Source: Aminobacter sp. HY435
GTDB lineage: Bacteria; Pseudomonadota; Alphaproteobacteria; Rhizobiales; Rhizobiaceae
Direction: 5' to 3'
Length of the DNA: 64,000 nt
Assembly (NCBI RefSeq): GCF_027568395.1
Contig: NZ_JANKZL010000010.1
Span: 124,001 to 188,000, forward strand
The translations under genes were made by a program, and so were the position numbers. Under the pieces are notes generated by a model, which ran no database searches, had not been told where the DNA came from, and saw nothing but the letters and a program-made list of their open reading frames with translations. Positions 787 to 17,788 of the stretch are shown in pieces (the stretch's first letter is position 1; the number at the start of each line of letters is the position of its first letter).

Positions 787-1815
787 TCAGCCCTTGAAGA
801 GCGAAAGAATGTTCTGCGAGTTGGAGTTGGCGATGGACAGCGCCTGGATACCCAGTTGCTGCTGCACCTGGAGTGCCTGCAGGCGGGTCGACTCGCGATC
901 CATGTCGGCATCGACCAACTGGCCAACGCCGCGATCGATGGAGTCCATCAACTTGGAAACGAAGTCCTTTTGCAGGTCGATGCGGGTCTTGGCAGCACCG
1001 AGGATCGTGGCGGCATCGGTCATTTCCGACAGTGCCTTCTCAACCACGTTCAACATCTGCTGAATCTGAATGTCGTTGGAGCCGGTTACCTTGAGGGTGG
1101 TGACAGAGTAGCCATCGGTTGCAGCCACGGTGCCGGCGGTGGCGGCGGTGGCGGCGTTGTCGCGCTTGCCGCTGGTGCCAAGCCGGAGACCATCGAGAAT
1201 GCCCATGTCGACGGCGTCAAACTCTTCGCCGGCATCAAGCACGCCATCGTTGTTTGCATCGGCGAAGCCAGTGTCGAACAGCTTGATCGGCTGAACGTCG
1301 ATGGTGATCTTGCCGAGGGTGACAGTGCCGTTCGATGCGCGATCAAACGACGACACGATGCTCGCGCCATCGTGCTTGCCAGGTGTTGCGTGATCTTTCG
1401 TGTCGACAGCCAGCCAATTGGCACCCGAGAATGTCGCGCCGCCGGCAATGCTCTTCAGCTGTTCCTGGCGCGCCTTGATTTCGGTATCGATCTTGGCCTT
1501 GTCTGCCTCGCTGGCGCCGACCGCCGCGACGAGCTTGAGCTTGATCTCCTCGACCACCGTGAGTGCCTTGTTCATGGCGGTATACGCGGTGTCGACCTTG
1601 CCGGCGCCGAGACCAAGAGCGTCCTGGACCGTGGAGAGCGCCTTGTTGTCGGAGCGCATGGTCGTCGCGATCGACCAGTAGGCAGCGTTGTCGGAGGCCT
1701 CGGCCACGCGGTAGCCGGTGGAGATGCGGCCTTGAGTGGTGTTGAGAGCCTTGTTGGTGGCGCTCAGGCTCTGCAGGGCCGTCATCGCCGAAGCGTTAGT
1801 CATTATGCTGGACAT
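787..1815 (-). CDS. Flagellin 1 (divergent paralogue with an EF-hand-like loop)
   Basis: Structural subunit of the flagellar filament, 342 residues. It has the conserved D0/D1 N-terminus (MSSIMTNASAMTALQSLSAT, NTTQGRISTGYRV) and C-terminus (DSIDRGVGQLVDADM, QVQQQLGIQALSIAN). It is the most divergent of the five paralogues: TGYRV instead of TGFRV, MDRES instead of MNKES, and ending SLFKG. Its variable centre (about residues 140-240) contains DANNDGVLDAGE at residues 186-197, which fits a canonical EF-hand calcium loop. Its 5' region lacks the structured leader shared by the other four. The start has GAGGGGGT upstream. It probably corresponds to the principal flagellin of the order, but that role is inference. 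Confidence 0.95.
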   Translation of the reverse strand: MSSIMTNASAMTALQSLSATNKALNTTQGRISTGYRVAEASDNAAYWSIATTMRSDNKALSTVQDALGLGAGKVDTAYTAMNKALTVVEEIKLKLVAAVGASEADKAKIDTEIKARQEQLKSIAGGATFSGANWLAVDTKDHATPGKHDGASIVSSFDRASNGTVTLGKITIDVQPIKLFDTGFADANNDGVLDAGEEFDAVDMGILDGLRLGTSGKRDNAATAATAGTVAATDGYSVTTLKVTGSNDIQIQQMLNVVEKALSEMTDAATILGAAKTRIDLQKDFVSKLMDSIDRGVGQLVDADMDRESTRLQALQVQQQLGIQALSIANSNSQNILSLFKG

Positions 1816-2236: not shown

Positions 2237-3334
2237 TTAGCCGCGGAACAGCGACAGGATCGACTGCGAATTGCCGTTGGCGATCGACAGGGCCTGGATT
2301 CCGAGCTGCTGCTGGACCTGAAGGGCCTGCAGGCGGGTCGATTCCTTGTTCATGTCGGCGTCGACGAGCTGACCGACGCCACGGTCGATCGAGTCCATCA
2401 GCGAGGAAGTGAACGACTTCTGCAGCTCGATGCGGCTCTTGGCGGCGCCGAGGTTGGTTGCTGCGGTGGTCATTCCCTTGAGCGCGCCTTCGACTTTCGC
2501 CAGCATCGAACCAAGGAAGGCATCGGTCACGCCTGCAGCGGTGATGTCGAGGTTGGCGACCGAAATGCTTGCGATCGTCGTCGCAGTCGCGTCGGCGGCC
2601 GTAGCTGCACCCGTACCAGCCGTAGCAGCCGCGGCATCGGTGCCGCCGCCGGCGACGGAAGCGGCATAAGCCGTGTCGTAGGCGGTCTGTGCAGCGGACG
2701 AACTATAGATTGTCGTCTGACGGTCGAGGATGCCGGCGTTCTTGATGTTGGCCGGGGTGCCCGCGCCGGAATCGTAGAGCTTCAGGCCCTCGACCTTGAT
2801 GTCGATGGTCGAGATCGAAGCGGTGCCCGATGCGTTGCGGTTGAACGCCGACACGATCTTTGCATCGGCCTGTACGCCGGTATTGGCTGCAGCAGCAGCG
2901 CCTGCCGCGTCCTTGTTGGAGGAAACCGACAGGTAGTTTGCGCCCGAGAAGGTGGCGCCGTCGGCGTAGGCCTTGAGCTGGTTCTGCAGCGCCTTGATTT
3001 CGGTCTGGATCTTGGCCTTGTCGGCCGCCGAAGCGCCGTTTGCGGCAACGAGCTTGACCTTGATCTCGTTGAGGGTGTCGATGGCCTTGTTCATGCCGGT
3101 GTAGGCGGTGTCGACCTTCGATGCGCCGAGGCCGAGCGCGTCCTGAACCGTCGAAAGCGCCTTGTTGTCGGAACGCATGGTGGTTGCGATCGACCAGTAG
3201 GCGGCGTTGTCGGACGCTTCGGCGACGCGGAAGCCGGTCGAGATGCGGCCCTGGGTGGTGTTGAGAGACTTGTTGGTTGCAGCAAGGCTCTGCAGTGCGG
3301 TCATTGCTGACGCGTTGGTATTGATGCTGGACAT
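2237..3334 (-). CDS. Flagellin 2
   Basis: Filament subunit, 365 residues. The N-terminal D0/D1 part (MSSINTNASAMTALQSLAAT, ISTGFRVAEASDNAAYWSIA) and the C-terminal part (LQKSFTSSLMDSIDRG, SIANGNSQSILSLFRG) are almost identical to flagellins 3-5. The variable centre is the longest of the set and is Ala/Thr/Gly-rich (about residues 215-270). The gene is monocistronic by appearance, with its own leader and terminator. SD-like AGGGGCG precedes the ATG. Confidence 0.96.
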   Translation of the reverse strand: MSSINTNASAMTALQSLAATNKSLNTTQGRISTGFRVAEASDNAAYWSIATTMRSDNKALSTVQDALGLGASKVDTAYTGMNKAIDTLNEIKVKLVAANGASAADKAKIQTEIKALQNQLKAYADGATFSGANYLSVSSNKDAAGAAAAANTGVQADAKIVSAFNRNASGTASISTIDIKVEGLKLYDSGAGTPANIKNAGILDRQTTIYSSSAAQTAYDTAYAASVAGGGTDAAAATAGTGAATAADATATTIASISVANLDITAAGVTDAFLGSMLAKVEGALKGMTTAATNLGAAKSRIELQKSFTSSLMDSIDRGVGQLVDADMNKESTRLQALQVQQQLGIQALSIANGNSQSILSLFRG

Positions 3335-3436
3335 GGGAATTACGCCCCTAGGAGAATGCGAAATGCAGGGACATACCGGATCGACCGGTATGGCGGAGCG
3401 GCATCATGCCAATGACCTCCATGGGTCACCCGCCAT
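3335..3436 (-). promoter_or_regulatory. Structured 5' leader of flagellin 2
   Basis: Roughly 100 nt directly upstream of the start, nearly identical before flagellins 2-5. It contains ATACCGG (3373-3379) pairing CCGGTAT (3385-3391), and GGCGG (3392-3396) pairing CCGCC (3430-3434). The second stem encloses TGACC (3413-3417)/GGTCA (3424-3428) and the small palindrome GGCATCATGCC (3400-3410). Comparison with flagellin 3 shows compensating changes in two of these stems. Likely a translated-mRNA control element; FlbT, which acts on flagellin leaders in Caulobacter, is a possible partner. Confidence 0.6.
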
Positions 3437-3480
3437 ATGGAACAGTATTGCCGATAGTTGCTACCAAACGTCTAAGCGTT

Positions 3481-3488
3481 ATGGTTAA
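3481..3488 (-). promoter_or_regulatory. TTAACCAT promoter box of flagellin 2
   Basis: TTAACCAT on the minus strand lies 147 bases from the flagellin 2 ATG and is followed at fixed distance by TAG and a GTTTGG-like block. The box is shared with the other flagellin genes at nearly the same distance. Confidence 0.45.
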
Positions 3489-3536
3489 GCTGCCTTAACA
3501 ATTTCAATTTGCTGGAGTCTGTTCGGACAAAGCAAA

Positions 3537-3564
3537 GCTGGCCACATCGTTCGATGCGGCCAGC
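3537..3564 (-). terminator. Intrinsic terminator of flagellin 3
   Basis: Stem GCTGGCCACATCG / CGATGCGGCCAGC (one G-T mismatch) with a TT loop, about 75 bases past the flagellin 3 stop. It is followed on the minus strand by TTTGCTTTGTCC. Confidence 0.7.
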
Positions 3565-3638
3565 CGTTTGAGCAGGAATGTCTGGCGTTCCTGACTTTGA
3601 TGCCAGCCGAAAGCGTAGACCAGCTTTCAGCGCAGGTC

Positions 3639-4559
3639 TTAGCCGCGGAACAGCGACAGGATCGACTGCGAGTTGCCGTTGGCGATCGACAGGGCCTGGA
3701 TACCGAGCTGCTGCTGGACCTGGAGGGCCTGCAGGCGGGTCGATTCCTTGTTCATGTCGGCGTCGACGAGCTGTCCGATACCACGATCGATGGAGTCCAT
3801 CAGGCTCGAGGTGAAGGTCTTCTGCAGGTCGATACGGCTCTTGGCAGCGCCGAGGTCGGTTGCAGCGGTCGTCATTTCCTTGAGAGCAGCTTCAACGCGC
3901 TGCAGGTGCTCGCCAACAACCGCGTCGGTGGTCGCAGCGGTCAGGGCAATTGCGGACACCGCAGAGCCAGCGCCTGCAGCGCCGGTGGCATCGCGCGTCT
4001 TGTCGAGGATACCCTTGTTTGCGCCGACTTCGAACAGCTTGATGTTCTCAACCTTGACGTCGATCGTCGAGATCTTTGCCGTTCCCGATGCATCGCGGGT
4101 GAAGGCAGACACGATCTTGATGTCGGCGGCTGTACCGGCGCCCGAGCTGGTCGAGAGCATGTTGGCGCCCGAGAAGGTCGCGCCATCGGCATAGGCCTTC
4201 AACTGGCTCTGCAGCGCCTGGATTTCGGTGTTGATCTTCTCTTTGTCGGCGCCCGATGCGCCGTTGGCGGCAACGAGCTTGACCTTGATCTCGTTGAGGG
4301 TGTCGATGGCCTTGTTCATGCCGGTGTAGGCGGTGTCGACCTTCGAAGCGCCGAGACCGAGCGCGTCCTGGACCGTCGAAAGCGCCTTGTTGTCGGAACG
4401 CATGGTGGTTGCGATCGACCAGTAGGCGGCATTGTCGGAAGCTTCGGCGACGCGGAAACCGGTCGAGATGCGGCCTTGGGTGGTGTTGAGGGCCTTGTTC
4501 GTCGCAGACAGGGTCTGCAGCGCGGTCATGGCCGATGCGTTGGTGTTGATGCTGGACAT
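3639..4559 (-). CDS. Flagellin 3 (shortest paralogue)
   Basis: Filament subunit, 306 residues. The conserved ends match flagellins 2, 4 and 5 (MSSINTNASAMTALQTLSAT; SIANGNSQSILSLFRG). The central variable part is the shortest of the five, reduced around residues 135-225 (SSGAGTAADIKIVSAF, NIKLFEVGANKGILDKTRD). Monocistronic layout with its own leader and terminator. The paralogues may differ in surface exposure of this centre. Confidence 0.96.
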   Translation of the reverse strand: MSSINTNASAMTALQTLSATNKALNTTQGRISTGFRVAEASDNAAYWSIATTMRSDNKALSTVQDALGLGASKVDTAYTGMNKAIDTLNEIKVKLVAANGASGADKEKINTEIQALQSQLKAYADGATFSGANMLSTSSGAGTAADIKIVSAFTRDASGTAKISTIDVKVENIKLFEVGANKGILDKTRDATGAAGAGSAVSAIALTAATTDAVVGEHLQRVEAALKEMTTAATDLGAAKSRIDLQKTFTSSLMDSIDRGIGQLVDADMNKESTRLQALQVQQQLGIQALSIANGNSQSILSLFRG

Positions 4560-4660
4560 GGGAAAAACGCCCCTAGGAAATGCTTAAATACAGGGACATA
4601 CCGGGCCGGCCGGTATGACGGAGCGGCATCATGCCAATGATCTCTGGGATCACCCGTCAT
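4560..4660 (-). promoter_or_regulatory. Structured 5' leader of flagellin 3 (covariant version)
   Basis: Same architecture as the leaders of flagellins 2, 4 and 5, but with paired substitutions. The outer stem is GACGG (4617-4621)/CCGTC (4654-4658) instead of GGCGG/CCGCC. The inner hairpin is TGATC (4638-4642)/GATCA (4648-4652) instead of TGACC/GGTCA. The first hairpin keeps ATACCGG (4598-4604)/CCGGTAT (4610-4616) while its loop changes. This pattern supports base pairing rather than simple sequence conservation. Confidence 0.65.
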
Positions 4661-4705
4661 GGCCCAGATTGTATTCAATCGCTTACTAATAAATTTCTAA
4701 ATATT

Positions 4706-4713
4706 ATGGTTAA
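4706..4713 (-). promoter_or_regulatory. TTAACCAT promoter box of flagellin 3
   Basis: Minus-strand TTAACCAT, 147 bases from the flagellin 3 ATG. The flanking TAG is kept, but the GTTTGG block seen in flagellins 2, 4 and 5 is diverged. Confidence 0.4.
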
Positions 4714-4806
4714 TCGAAGTTAATCATTTGATTTTTATGATTTTTCCGGAGCGGAGTTCAGCAGCTACCAGCCTTGGCAGGGGTAGGGTTGGGTCCACAA
4801 ATGCAG

Positions 4807-4834
4807 TTGGGCCGCACCTTGCGATGCGGCCCAA
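4807..4834 (-). terminator. Intrinsic terminator of flagellin 4
   Basis: Stem TTGGGCCGCA / TGCGGCCCAA with an 8-nt loop, 25 bases past the flagellin 4 stop. Confidence 0.65.
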
Positions 4835-4858
4835 CCATCTTTCTTGCCCGAACGGGAA

Positions 4859-5863
4859 TTACCGGAACAGCGACAGGATCGACTGCGAGTTGCCGTTGGC
4901 GATCGACAGAGCCTGGATACCGAGCTGCTGCTGGACCTGGAGGGCCTGCAGGCGGGTCGATTCCTTGTTCATGTCGGCGTCGACGAGCTGACCAACGCCA
5001 CGATCGATGGAGTCCATCAGGCTCGAGGTGAAGGTCTTCTGCAGGTCGATGCGGCTCTTGGCTGCACCGAGGTTGGTGGCAGCCGTGGTCATGTCCTTCA
5101 ACGCAGCTTCGACCACACCGAGCATATCGCCGATCTGGGTGTCGCTTGCCGCGGTTGCGCCGCTCGTCAGTGCGAGGGTGGCAACGCTGTAGGTGTCACC
5201 AACCGCGGCAGCCGCGCCAAGCGTCGGCGCCTGGATGTCGGCATCGGCAACACGCACGCCATCGTTTGTCCGCTGCGCATCGAGCAGACCGGCGTGGGCG
5301 TTGTCGGCGGCGCCAGCAACATCGTAGAGCTTGATGTTGTTGACGGCGACATCAATCGTCGAGATCGATGCCGTACCTGCGCCGTTGCGGTTGAACGCCG
5401 AGACGATCTTCACCGGATCGGCGGTGCCGACCGTTGCCGCGGCCGACGAGTCGACGGAGAGCATGTTGCTGCCCGAGAAGGTGGCGCCGTCGGCATAGGC
5501 CTTGAGCTGGTTCTGCAAGGCCTTGATCTCGGTGTCGATCTTGCCCTTGTCGGCCGCCGAAGCGCCGTTTGCGGCAACGAGCTTGACCTTGATCTCGTTG
5601 AGGGTGTCGATGGCCTTGTTCATGCCGGTGTAGGCGGTGTCGACCTTCGAGGCGCCGAGACCGAGAGCGTCCTGGACTGTCGAAAGCGCCTTGTTGTCGG
5701 ATCGCATGGTGGTTGCGATCGACCAGTAGGCGGCATTGTCGGAAGCTTCGGCGACGCGGAAGCCTGTCGAAATGCGGCCCTGGGTGGTGTTGAGAGACTT
5801 GCTGGTTGCGGCAAGGCTCTGCAGCGCGGTCATTGCTGACGCGTTGGTATTTATGCTGGACAT
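4859..5863 (-). CDS. Flagellin 4
   Basis: Filament subunit, 334 residues. D0/D1 ends are nearly identical to flagellins 2, 3 and 5. It ends SILSLFR and so lacks the final glycine of its paralogues. The variable centre (about residues 138-235) includes SSAAATVGTADPVKIVSAF and NNIKLYDVAGAADNAHAG. Own leader, promoter box and terminator. Confidence 0.96.
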   Translation of the reverse strand: MSSINTNASAMTALQSLAATSKSLNTTQGRISTGFRVAEASDNAAYWSIATTMRSDNKALSTVQDALGLGASKVDTAYTGMNKAIDTLNEIKVKLVAANGASAADKGKIDTEIKALQNQLKAYADGATFSGSNMLSVDSSAAATVGTADPVKIVSAFNRNGAGTASISTIDVAVNNIKLYDVAGAADNAHAGLLDAQRTNDGVRVADADIQAPTLGAAAAVGDTYSVATLALTSGATAASDTQIGDMLGVVEAALKDMTTAATNLGAAKSRIDLQKTFTSSLMDSIDRGVGQLVDADMNKESTRLQALQVQQQLGIQALSIANGNSQSILSLFR

Positions 5864-5965
5864 GGGAATTACGCCCCTAGGAAAATGCGAAATGCAGGGA
5901 CATACCGGATCGACCGGTATGGCGGAGCGGCATCATGCCAATGACCCCTCCGGGTCACCCGCCAT
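5864..5965 (-). promoter_or_regulatory. Structured 5' leader of flagellin 4
   Basis: Same element as at flagellin 2. ATACCGG (5902-5908)/CCGGTAT (5914-5920) and GGCGG (5921-5925)/CCGCC (5959-5963) are kept. The inner hairpin is one pair longer here: TGACCC (5942-5947)/GGGTCA (5952-5957). Confidence 0.6.
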
Positions 5966-6008
5966 GCCTGCAACTTCACGCAAAGTTCCTGCCAAACATC
6001 TAAGCAAA

Positions 6009-6016
6009 ATGGTTAA
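6009..6016 (-). promoter_or_regulatory. TTAACCAT promoter box of flagellin 4
   Basis: Minus-strand TTAACCAT, 146 bases from the ATG, followed by TAG and GTTTGGCAGG as at flagellin 5. Confidence 0.45.
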
Positions 6017-6076
6017 TCCAATCAGGTGGTTGGCTGGCTCGACGGATTTCCACAAGCGATATCGCCAAAACGGAAA

Positions 6077-6100
6077 GGGCCGCACCTTGCGGCGCGGCCC
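6077..6100 (-). terminator. Intrinsic terminator of flagellin 5
   Basis: Stem GGGCCGC / GCGGCCC with further partial pairing in the loop, about 44 bases past the flagellin 5 stop. CCGTTTTGG follows on the minus strand. Confidence 0.6.
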
Positions 6101-6143
6101 CAGTCCGATCAACTGCCTGAGACGGCAACTGATGATGCTTATA

Positions 6144-7130
6144 TTAGCCGCGGAACAGCGACAGGATCGACTGCGAGTTGCCGTTGGCGATAGACAGGGC
6201 CTGGATGCCGAGCTGCTGCTGGACCTGAAGGGCCTGCAGGCGGGTCGATTCCTTGTTCATGTCGGCGTCGACGAGCTGTCCGATACCACGATCGATGGAG
6301 TCCATCAGGCTCGAGGTGAAGGTCTTCTGCAGGTCGATGCGGCTCTTGGCGGCGCCGAGATTGGTCGCAGCCGTCGTCATGTCCTTCAGCGCGCTTTCGA
6401 CAACGCCGAGCATCTGGCCAAGCTGCTGGTCGGTTGCAAACAATGTGCCGTCCGTCAGCTTCATTGTTGCGACCTGGAAAGTATCGGCAGCATCATACGT
6501 GCCGAGGGTGACTGCATTCGCAGCGCCTTCGACGCCAGCAGCGGTCCGCTCGGAGTCGAGAATGCCCTTGTTTACGCCAGCTGCAGTGCCGGCTTCGTAC
6601 AACTTGATGTTTTCGACAGTGATGTCGATGGTCGAGATCGAAGCAGCGCCCGATGCGTTGCGGTTGAACGCCGAAACGACCTTGACGTCAGCCGCGGTGG
6701 TTGCCGTGGTGCCGCTGTTGACCGAGAGCATGTTCGAGCCGGAGAAGGTGGCGCCGTCGGCATAGGCCTTGAGCTGGTCCTGGAGTGCCTTCACTTCGGT
6801 CTGGATCTTGGCCTTGTCGGCATCCGAAGCGCCGTTGGCGGCAACGAGCTTGACCTTGATCTCGTTGAGGGTGTCGATGGCCTTGTTCATGCCGGTGTAG
6901 GCGGTGTCGACCTTCGAGGCGCCGAGACCGAGAGCGTCCTGGACCGTCGAGAGCGCCTTGTTGTCGGAACGCATCGTCGTTGCGATCGACCAGTAGGCGG
7001 CGTTGTCGGAGGCTTCAGCGACGCGGAAACCCGTCGAGATGCGGCCCTGGGTGGTGTTGAGAGACTTGTTGGTTGCAGCAAGGCTCTGCAGCGCGGTCAT
7101 TGCTGACGCGTTGGTATTGATGCTGGACAT
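6144..7130 (-). CDS. Flagellin 5
   Basis: Filament subunit, 328 residues when started at the ATG of MSSINTNASAMTALQSLAAT (7130). The open frame extends 37 codons further upstream, but those codons translate the conserved leader and are not expected to be protein. Conserved ends as in flagellins 2-4. The variable centre runs over about residues 138-230 (NSGTTATTAADVKVVSAF, NIKLYEAGTAAGVNKGILD). It is the first flagellin downstream of the fliP operon, with its own promoter region and terminator. Confidence 0.96.
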   Translation of the reverse strand: MSSINTNASAMTALQSLAATNKSLNTTQGRISTGFRVAEASDNAAYWSIATTMRSDNKALSTVQDALGLGASKVDTAYTGMNKAIDTLNEIKVKLVAANGASDADKAKIQTEVKALQDQLKAYADGATFSGSNMLSVNSGTTATTAADVKVVSAFNRNASGAASISTIDITVENIKLYEAGTAAGVNKGILDSERTAAGVEGAANAVTLGTYDAADTFQVATMKLTDGTLFATDQQLGQMLGVVESALKDMTTAATNLGAAKSRIDLQKTFTSSLMDSIDRGIGQLVDADMNKESTRLQALQVQQQLGIQALSIANGNSQSILSLFRG

Positions 7131-7233
7131 GGGAATTACGCCCCTAGGAAAATGCGAAGATACAGGGACATACCGGATCGACCGGTATGGCGGAGCGGCA
7201 TCATGCCAATGACCTCCATGGGTCACCCGCCAT
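7131..7233 (-). promoter_or_regulatory. Structured 5' leader of flagellin 5
   Basis: ATACCGG (7170-7176)/CCGGTAT (7182-7188), GGCGG (7189-7193)/CCGCC (7227-7231) and TGACC (7210-7214)/GGTCA (7221-7225). Same order and spacing as the other three leaders. Confidence 0.6.
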
Positions 7234-7276
7234 GCCTGCAATCTCGCACAAACATCCTGCCAAACACCTAATCGGT

Positions 7277-16512: not shown

Positions 16513-17634
16513 TCAGAACCTCAGTTTTTGCATCGCAAACATCAGGTCGGTCGATACCCCGTAGGATGTCGGCATGCCGAACAAGATGCCGGCCGATTGT
16601 AGCGCCGGAGATGTGGGATTGTTGATCTCCCAAAGGCTGGTGAAGCGCTTGAGGAATTCGCCGAGCTTCTTTGGGTCGGAGAGGTCGGAAACTTTCAGCT
16701 TCTGTTCGAACAGCTTGACCTGCTTGTCGACGTCAGCCTGTGCAAAGGCTTCCGGGAGCATCAATGCGGTGCGCACGACCTTGGCCAGGGCCGGGTCGGC
16801 AAGCACCTGGTAGAAATTGGAAATGCTCGAAGCCTTGCGTTCGAAATAGAGCGCAAGGCGGACCCCTTCATTTTCCTTGCCGGCATTTTCCTCGAGGGTC
16901 TGCCGAAAGAATTTTTCCGTCGATGGCTTCTGTGCTGCGTTGATGGTGGTGGCGTCGGCGCCGTAGGCTTCGAAATTGAACGCGGTGGCAAATGCAGCAA
17001 AGCGCGTATCGGCCATCTGGTTGGCATAGCTTTTCGGGTCGCGAACACCACCCGCCAAAACCTTCGCCATCATCTCCTTGTTCTCGACAGAACCACCGAG
17101 ACCGTAGGCGTTCATTGCAAAGACGTAGAGCCGGTCGTTGGCAAGAAGCTCTTTGGCGGACTTAATCTTTACGATGTTTTCCTGATAGTATTTGACTTCT
17201 TTCTTCACCGCTTCGGAATTCGGGTCGCCGCCGGCCAGGTTGACAGCCACCAGATACTTGGTCGTGGTCCCCTGTTGGGCTTTGTTGAAGACGGTGGCCT
17301 GGTCCCCGAGCTCCGCGAAGTTGAAGGTTTTGACAAATTCGGCATAGCGCTTGTCAGTCAGCTTGTTGGCGAAGCTGTCGGGATTGGCAATGCCCTCCTT
17401 GAGGGCCTTTTTCATGAACGCCTTGGCGTAGGCCATGTCCTCTAGGCCGTGCGACTTCATCGCGTACTTGAAAAGCCGATCGTTCTTGATGAACTCGTCG
17501 ATGCTTTTCACTTTCGTGATGTTCTTCAGGTAGTACTCGGTTTCGCGCTCGACGATCGGCTGGGCTTCGACCCGGTCAAGGGCCTTGCCAAGGTCCTTCG
17601 CGATCATCTGATAGCTAGTATACGTGTTGAGCAC
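16513..17634 (-). CDS. DUF1217 domain protein of the flagellar cluster
   Basis: 373 residues, soluble, composed of at least two similar units. Unit 1 has ETEYYLKNITKVKSIDEFIK ... DRLFKYAMKSHGLEDMAYAK ... DKRYAEFVKTFNFAELG. Unit 2 has KEVKYYQENIVKIKSAKELL ... DRLYVFAMNAYGLGGSVENK ... DTRFAAFATAFNFEAYG. This is the DUF1217 pattern found next to flagellar genes in this order. I prefer the GTG at 17634 (VLNTYTSYQM), 9 bases after GGAGG, over the TTG two codons upstream, which lies too close to the SD. The function is unknown. It heads the leftward operon and is divergent from motA. Confidence 0.85.
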   Translation of the reverse strand: MLNTYTSYQMIAKDLGKALDRVEAQPIVERETEYYLKNITKVKSIDEFIKNDRLFKYAMKSHGLEDMAYAKAFMKKALKEGIANPDSFANKLTDKRYAEFVKTFNFAELGDQATVFNKAQQGTTTKYLVAVNLAGGDPNSEAVKKEVKYYQENIVKIKSAKELLANDRLYVFAMNAYGLGGSVENKEMMAKVLAGGVRDPKSYANQMADTRFAAFATAFNFEAYGADATTINAAQKPSTEKFFRQTLEENAGKENEGVRLALYFERKASSISNFYQVLADPALAKVVRTALMLPEAFAQADVDKQVKLFEQKLKVSDLSDPKKLGEFLKRFTSLWEINNPTSPALQSAGILFGMPTSYGVSTDLMFAMQKLRF

Positions 17635-17788
17635 GAACAAAGTCCTCCCGCCGCAGGATAGTCGGAGAAGGCTACGCTCGAATCCTTGCGCGAGGCTGAA
17701 TCGATTTTCGACAGTCCTTCAAGCCTCACACAAGGCACGGCGTCTATCTGTGCATGCATATTGCTTTTGAATGCGGAAGGACCTGCTC

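Follow-up and report, generated by a model that had tools for sequence, protein, structure and literature searches.

The leaders of four out of five consecutive flagellin genes, all encoded on the minus strand of a 64,000-nucleotide stretch of Aminobacter sp. HY435 (contig NZ_JANKZL010000010.1, positions 124,001 to 188,000; this whole stretch is hereafter the window), contain a new RNA family, a structured mRNA leader for translation control that matches no family of Rfam and did not come up in our searches of the open-access literature. That these leaders are structured RNAs for the control of translation can be held with near-certainty. Sequence comparisons across the order Hyphomicrobiales further suggest that the element is a conserved cis-acting translation-control RNA of lateral-type flagellins, and that it is probably read by the lateral-type version of the flagellar regulator FlbT. 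The four leaders lie immediately 5' of the ATG codons at 3334, 4559, 5863 and 7130, and the features concerned are the following:

3335..3440, minus strand: leader RNA of flagellin 2 (76.8 bits, core 3373-3440)
3436-3430 pairing with 3396-3390, minus strand: helix P1 of the flagellin 2 leader
3429-3424 pairing with 3417-3412, minus strand: helix P2 of the flagellin 2 leader
3410-3400, minus strand: hairpin P3 of the flagellin 2 leader, GGCAUGAUGCC
3389-3375, minus strand: P4 of the flagellin 2 leader
3374-3367 pairing with 3349-3342, minus strand: P5 of the flagellin 2 leader, with the AGGGG ribosome-binding site within 3349-3342
4560..4664, minus strand: leader RNA of flagellin 3, the divergent copy with two compensatory pairs (75.7 bits, core 4598-4664)
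5864..5969, minus strand: leader RNA of flagellin 4 (77.3 bits, core 5902-5969)
7131..7237, minus strand: leader RNA of flagellin 5 (78.1 bits, core 7170-7237)
787..1815, minus strand: flagellin 1, without the element, the contrast case
2237..3334, minus strand: flagellin 2, gene behind its leader (Flagellin_N and Flagellin_C domains)
3639..4559, minus strand: flagellin 3, gene behind its leader
4859..5863, minus strand: flagellin 4, gene behind its leader
6144..7130, minus strand: flagellin 5, gene behind its leader, with its start placed at ATG 7130

The listed open reading frame of flagellin 5 opens at TTG 7241, and it is ATG 7130 that matches the starts of the other flagellins in the alignment. 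Aligned with one another, the four leaders are near-copies of about 105 nucleotides with a mean column identity of 92%. An earlier note, made from the letters of the window alone, had claimed that the leaders of flagellins 2-5 share the same stems, that flagellin 3 differs from the rest by paired changes, that a first hairpin keeps ATACCGG/CCGGTAT constant while its loop varies, and that flagellin 1 lacks the element. The alignment bears out the first three of these claims, places the leaders on the minus strand, which the note did not give, and specifies the paired changes as G-C to A-T in ATGGCGG/CCGCCAT and C-G to T-A in TGACC/GGTCA; helix P1 begins at 3436, which that note had given as the outer end of the flagellin 2 leader. 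The fourth claim agrees with a scan of the window by a broad covariance model with filters off, which returned four matches of 75.7-78.1 bits and a next best of 15.3 bits, the leader of flagellin 1 scoring just 8.9 bits (E 2.7). In the whole genome, only the four leader copies lie above the thresholds used.

The element is built around a three-way junction, in which P1 (AUGGCGG/CCGCCAU in Aminobacter sp. HY435) encloses P2, with a loop variable in length and sequence, and P3, the near-invariant GGCAUGANGCC, a GGCA-UGA-UGCC hairpin. Out of 115 rows from across the order, two lacked the searched motif and one was incomplete; among the remaining 112 readable P3 hairpins 67 are identical, 38 have one difference and 7 have more. 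P4 is a CCGG-loop-CCGG hairpin, right 3' of which most leaders bear a UGUCCC segment complementary to GGGACA or GGGGC, located about 10 nucleotides upstream of the ATG at the presumed ribosome-binding site. This fifth stem, P5, is absent from the earlier note, and its pairing of the ribosome-binding site gives anatomical support to the role in translation which that note had proposed. A census of P5 covered the 194 of 224 rows with a recognised flagellin ATG, clustered to 144 leaders: a strong stem occurs in 103 of them, against 12.7 expected from shuffling, and 106 have GTCC 3' of P4, with a stem score of at least 5 in 102 of the 106. Compensatory variants of P5, such as UGUUCC/GGAACA, are also present. 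For the Aminobacter leaders themselves the minimum is 1.2 to 7.1 kcal/mol below the energy of the common structure, whose helices mostly show a high pairing probability. In place of the usual P5, leaders of a Rhizobium-type group (loci L038, L041, L043, L024 and relatives) carry GGTAC(G)AGTACC-like letters immediately 5' of the flagellin ATG.

The earlier note had regarded covariation among the paralogues as good evidence for a functional structure. For the four leaders alone this was too generous, since only 2 of the 30 pairs covary, both by way of the single paralogue flagellin 3, and the folding energies are close to those of shuffled sequences; with homologues added, the claim holds. In an alignment of 47 matches to the covariance model, changes on both sides are seen in 25 of the 30 pairs (shuffled mean 6.2), 95.8% of cells are paired, and sliding the partners abolishes the signal. 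With 115 matches there are 310 double-change cells against 90.2 in shuffles, and P2 is paired in just 75.5% of cells, partly from slipped alignment. As model-based alignments favour the structure, we re-aligned the sequences with the structure-blind program MAFFT, retaining 216 of the 226 rows of our alignments A7 and A8 by length and quality and clustering them at 90% to 163 sequences. We assessed covariation with a G-test of our own (average-product correction, null simulated on a FastTree tree), the null of which differs from that of R-scape. Of the 2701 column pairs tested, ten reached E<0.05; P1 accounts for five of them, P2 for three in register and one slipped by a base, and P4 for one. 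Given that these sequences had partly been gathered by a structural model, the test was repeated on an independent set selected by the P3/P4 pattern alone, with P1 and P2 unconstrained (97 sequences, 77 after clustering). Here four pairs attained E<0.01: two belong to P2, one belongs to P1, and the fourth is the outermost pair of P4. The next two, again in P1 and P2, fell short of significance (E 0.16 and 0.32). As expected for an RNA read from the gene strand, G-U pairs exceed A-C mismatches in P1, P2 and P4 of this set (63 versus 24; by helix 36/8 in P1, 23/11 in P2 and 4/5 in the outer P4 pair), as they do in the larger set (118 versus 69). The covariation thus did not vanish as homologues were added, and the functional, structured 5' untranslated region (UTR) that the earlier note had postulated gains strong support from the homologues and from these phylogeny-aware tests.

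The same data dispose of the alternative that nothing more than a recent duplication, giving four paralogues, lies behind the likeness of the leaders, or that a short peptide in an AUGAUG... frame is what is conserved, and not RNA. The 92% likeness of the four copies would fit it, as would an open frame, MMPLRHTGRSGMS..., that runs through the Aminobacter leaders. In many relatives, however, that frame is broken by stops or frame shifts, and the helices covary across the order, in both structure-blind sets, so that duplication or a peptide is ruled out as a full account and hardly merits belief in any form. A leader peptide or attenuator with a conserved upstream open reading frame is excluded by the same stops and frame shifts.

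The homologues were gathered with a series of models, the DNA being read for part of the matches only. A covariance model of the four leaders, the check suggested in the earlier note (R1; strict filters, E<=0.001), found matches in 107 of 199 genomes of the same family, and a core model that omits the last stem (R2; E<=0.01) in 99 of 397 genomes of the order, where 15 families remain after removal of false and doubtful matches. Most matches that were read precede flagellins, some precede chemoreceptors and a few are false. On reading, the order-level matches L108, L121, L123, L124 and L125 proved false; L093 and L119 are doubtful, and were left out of the 163-sequence covariation test and the P5 census, though included in alignment A7 (the source of model R3), the 115-match double-change count and the P3 hairpin count. 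Beyond the order, a sample of 289 genomes of the class gave weak matches in ten further genomes (11 places, E 1.4e-4 to 0.009), none of which stands before a recognisable flagellin; under the strict filters used this sample, not confirmed to include Caulobacter and its fljK, contained no true match outside the order. The exact P3/P4 pattern occurs in at least 117 stretches of named genomes, of which 80 were listed; the genera among these listed matches include Mesorhizobium, Bradyrhizobium, Sinorhizobium, Ensifer, Aminobacter, Microvirga, Bosea, Hyphomicrobium, Methylosinus, Xanthobacter, Pannonibacter, Roseibium and Agrobacterium, along with metagenome bins assigned to Hyphomicrobiales, Rhizobiaceae, Beijerinckiaceae, Methylocystaceae and Proteobacteria. 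Among the 80 listed loci the best match to the window is that of Aminobacter aganoensis (L291), with four flagellins bearing the element and one without it, and in Bradyrhizobium diazoefficiens SZCCT0423 (L266) the element precedes all three flagellins of the stretch examined.

By an automatic test, 79 of the 97 pattern matches with flanks precede a flagellin-like N-terminus, and of the remaining 18 no fewer than four (L293, L305, L315 and L319) are flagellins as well when read by eye. A Pfam scan of ten non-flagellin pattern loci identified six methyl-accepting chemotaxis proteins (MCPs) with a protoglobin domain, one HAMP-containing MCP and three other genes, encoding a histidine kinase, an ABC transporter and an Hpt protein, before which the element may be either real or a chance occurrence. 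In the order-level set, two protoglobin MCPs and three other MCPs lie downstream of elements. Chemoreceptors of this protoglobin (haem oxygen-sensor) type bear the element in several genera (L249, L251, L274, L301, L309, L310, L117 and L057). Conversely, the pattern loci, a set selected for having an element, hold 101 flagellins, of which 13 are without one. In this genome, in Aminobacter and in several Mesorhizobium a single flagellin in the row is of this kind (at 787-1815 of the window, at 5321 in L291, at 7002 in L287, and in L246, L247, L253, L259 and L311). Such a gene may encode an exempt, checkpoint-type flagellin comparable to FljJ of Caulobacter. Another locus with an element, L324, has downstream of it (5577-7109, minus strand) a frame for a repetitive protein, MSSITTSLTTTQIAGLSTTALTALTTTDIAAL..., with 511 residues in the stretch read.

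The earlier note had named an FlbT-type regulator as the first candidate for a partner, and the phylogeny of FlbT strengthens that candidacy, in a correlative manner, because the element tracks one of two FlbT clades. Our tree took in 69 genomes, chosen by hand and not at random, with 93 of the 98 FlbT matches found in them; the five excluded were fragmentary or weak. It splits into two clades with full support (100/100), which from taxonomy and copy number we take to correspond to lateral-type (clade I) and subpolar-type (clade II) flagella. All 38 FlbT genes within 60 kilobases (kb) of an element (actual maximum 32 kb) belong to clade I and none to clade II. Clade I holds in addition five FlbT of unknown linkage and a further three from genomes seemingly without the element; a sensitive search found an element before a flagellin in each of the three (E 2.5e-8, 5.2e-4 and 0.0019), two of these at 9 and 13 kb from the FlbT gene and the third on a different contig. 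Clade II comprises 28 FlbT from element-less genomes, 18 that are second copies lying far away from the element, and a single one of unknown status. The 23 genomes having clade II FlbT only gave seven weak matches (E 0.0024-0.099), none before a flagellin on reading.

Co-occurrence follows the same lines. Aminobacter sp. HY435 itself has one FlbT gene (E 3.8e-40), which lies beyond the window at a distance of about 15 kb from flagellin 2. When the two lists were compared by eye, FlbT was present in 95 of the 99 genomes with element matches; three of the four lacking it rest on false or doubtful matches (L108, L123, L093), and the fourth, G308, has a true element before a flagellin in a genome that is 86% complete. 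Without the false or doubtful matches of G211, G260, G273, G533 and G265, the figure is 93 of 94 genomes, G308 being the exception. In families f11, f34 and f44 the element is found in 24 of 24 genomes with at least two FlbT copies and in none of 29 with one. For f41 the first search gave 7 of 10 two-copy and 0 of 9 one-copy genomes, and more sensitive searches were positive in the remaining three two-copy genomes (G518, G574 and G541). Family f35 has the element in 6 of 9 two-copy genomes, G551 and G562 having both FlbT copies in clade II and G387 being negative; the sole match among its one-copy genomes (G273, L124) is false. In f42 the element is present in G411, and, on later searches, in G389 and G506, as well as in two one-copy genomes; G312 gave a false match only. 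A further sensitive search of four two-FlbT genomes seemingly without the element was positive for G541 and G506 and negative for G387 and G312. The order-level R2 search gave no match in two-copy genomes of f6, f20, f43 and f49, and a renewed search of G496, G349, G217, G297, G343 and G282 detected no element before a flagellin; in G496, G217 and G343, the three in which the second FlbT match was inspected, that match is weak or partial.

An alternative is that a real translation-control RNA might be read by another product of the lateral cluster or by a general factor, such as FlaF, a small RNA (sRNA) or an RNase. Since the element and clade I FlbT travel together as parts of the lateral system, any gene of the cluster would correlate with the element equally well. 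Set against this are passages of two papers in which FlbT is the protein reported to act on flagellin 5' UTRs (PMC3930126, PMC4347634), and of a third in which it is reported to induce lateral flagellins translationally (PMC8429497), and we regard another reader as rather unlikely. FlbT as the reader of the leader seems to us, from these comparisons, reasonably probable.

In the mechanism that we envisage, a closed P5 would leave the flagellin poorly translated, and its mRNA perhaps unstable, despite transcription. Lateral-type FlbT would recognise the invariant region of P3 and the junction, and its binding would favour the state with a free ribosome-binding site, such that flagellin output would be tied to FlbT activity. 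Through the common leader the four flagellins, and in relatives also chemoreceptors, would respond together, with flagellin 1 escaping. Passages of the literature describe several comparable relations: in Caulobacter FlbT binds the flagellin 5' UTR (PMC3930126), and its activity depends on flagellin export, with the flagellin paralogue FljJ as partner and export relieving repression (PMC7591256); in B. diazoefficiens the lateral flagellins LafA1 and LafA2 are translationally induced by FlbT (PMC8429497); and in Brucella FlbT has been proposed (PMC4347634) and described (PMC9812332) as an activator of flagellin synthesis. Lateral and subpolar flagellar systems are treated in passages of PMC6406911. 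The more inclusive proposal, according to which the element would be the RNA receptor of lateral-type FlbT, forming one family on flagellins and chemoreceptors, haem-globin receptors included, with FlbT as an activator that opens the ribosome-binding site, in contrast to the repressor known from Caulobacter, and the element-less flagellins as exempt, checkpoint-type ones, we advance tentatively, as something short of an even chance.

Several observations weigh against the role assigned here to the element and to FlbT. Foremost, FlbT is inherited together with the whole lateral cluster, which is the main confounder, and the association therefore does not single out FlbT. The tree rests on 125 columns and two long branches, in addition to the non-random choice of genomes, and the two-FlbT genomes G387 and G312, the FlbT copies of which are outside the tree, have no true element. 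FlbT of Caulobacter is a repressor, and searches beyond the order turned up no true copy of the element, so that FlbT function in general does not depend on it. Neither sequence-profile nor structure searches yielded a structural relative that would mark FlbT as RNA-binding. With regard to the RNA, the Aminobacter leaders fold no better than shuffled sequences (minimum free energy z-scores -0.56 to -1.40), the predicted pairing probability of P4 in the flagellin 3 leader is low (0.09), and that of P1, P3 and P5 in the flagellin 4 leader is about 0.5. Finally, 38 of the 144 leaders have no GTCC after P4, with some stem (score of at least 5) still present in 16 of the 38; among the 38 are those of the Rhizobium-type group, which miss the usual P5.

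A likeness of the N-terminus of FlbT to CsrA was considered. A structure search with a predicted FlbT model (mean predicted local distance difference test score, pLDDT, 93.8) gave no PDB match at E<=0.001, nor did CsrA appear in the best 50 of 133 rows. In the absence of a match in either structure or sequence profile, this likeness is not claimed.

The pairing of the ribosome-binding site by P5 in most members is also what would be anticipated if the element were self-acting, that is, if it tuned translation or mRNA stability, or sensed temperature, through P5 alone, with P1-P4 protective and no partner involved. Stable 5' structures generally protect mRNAs, which could be counted in its favour. 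A protective stem, though, needs no invariant sequence, whereas P3 is nearly invariant over the order, and some members retain P1-P4 in spite of having no P5; a self-acting element accordingly strikes us as quite improbable. Of still lower probability, indeed very slight, is a small-molecule riboswitch responding, for example, to cyclic di-GMP. A multi-stem junction with an invariant core and a set of targets made up of motility genes, flagellins as well as chemoreceptors, would suit such a switch; against it, no Rfam family, riboswitches included, matches the element, which moreover accompanies one of two flagellar systems per cell, although a cell-wide ligand could serve both.

The comparison with Rfam extended to the window leaders and the elements of 20 further loci, and no family matches any of them. 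The flg-Rhizobiales RNA (RF01736) resembles the leader element in being a cis-regulatory candidate RNA at flagellar genes of the same order. It was reportedly described by Weinberg in 2010. It is nonetheless a different element, with three stem-loops bearing UUGGGAGA-type loops, where the leader element has another sequence and fold, and it lies upstream of an flgF-like gene (by eye, at two loci), unlike the flagellin leaders. RF01736 has no match in the window, exceeds its 55-bit gathering cut-off in 0 of 199 genomes of the family, and, as a positive control, exceeds it in 6 of 30 other genomes, at other places; neither its model nor ours matches the elements of the other. The six are Bradyrhizobium-like genomes (L066-L071 at 1501), and in five of them RF01736 is on the same contig as a subpolar-type FlbT, 10-23 kb away.

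Among functionally related systems, the FlbT-regulated flagellin 5' UTR of Caulobacter is said, in citing passages, to go back to Anderson and Gober in 2000. As far as passages on Caulobacter crescentus describe it, this system shares with ours post-transcriptional control at the leader, the presence of FlbT and several co-controlled paralogous flagellins; it differs in that FlbT represses or promotes decay there, and the element was detected, in the class sample, only within Hyphomicrobiales. LafA1/LafA2 of B. diazoefficiens and FliC of Brucella are, in the passages on them, closer to the leader-bearing flagellins, as they belong to the lateral-type lineage and have FlbT as activator, but neither an RNA structure nor a motif for binding is given in these passages. 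Leaders that sequester the ribosome-binding site are otherwise known, for instance those of ribosomal-protein genes; they share a P5-like pairing of that site with an upstream segment, and the present element differs from them in its own fold, its own gene set and the partner presumed for it, a protein encoded in the flagellar cluster. Our full-text searches of open-access literature, which misses most subscription papers, brought up no account of this RNA.

FlbT has been described as a post-transcriptional regulator of flagellin since 2000, with repression ascribed to it in one group and activation in another. In passages of a 2015 review its RNA motif is left blank and its mechanism is called unresolved (PMC4347634). 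A covarying RNA that tracks one FlbT clade makes the question of an RNA target of FlbT directly testable at the bench. The element further allows lateral-type flagellins to be recognised from sequence, and draws attention to chemoreceptors that are possibly under the same control as the flagellins.

Some additional features of the window accompany the flagellin genes. A TTAACCAT box stands upstream of all five, for example at 3460-3500 (minus strand), with a TTAGA-like or TAAGAC motif after it; together they may form a promoter or regulator site that the genes have in common. Between genes, at 4799-4846, 6067-6134 and 726-782 (all minus strand), GC-rich hairpins run into T-rich stretches and are probably intrinsic terminators; the Rfam sRNA families BjrC68 and SorX match at these hairpins below threshold. 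The flagellar cluster also includes a DUF1217 protein (16513-17640, minus strand), with two matched stretches of the domain.

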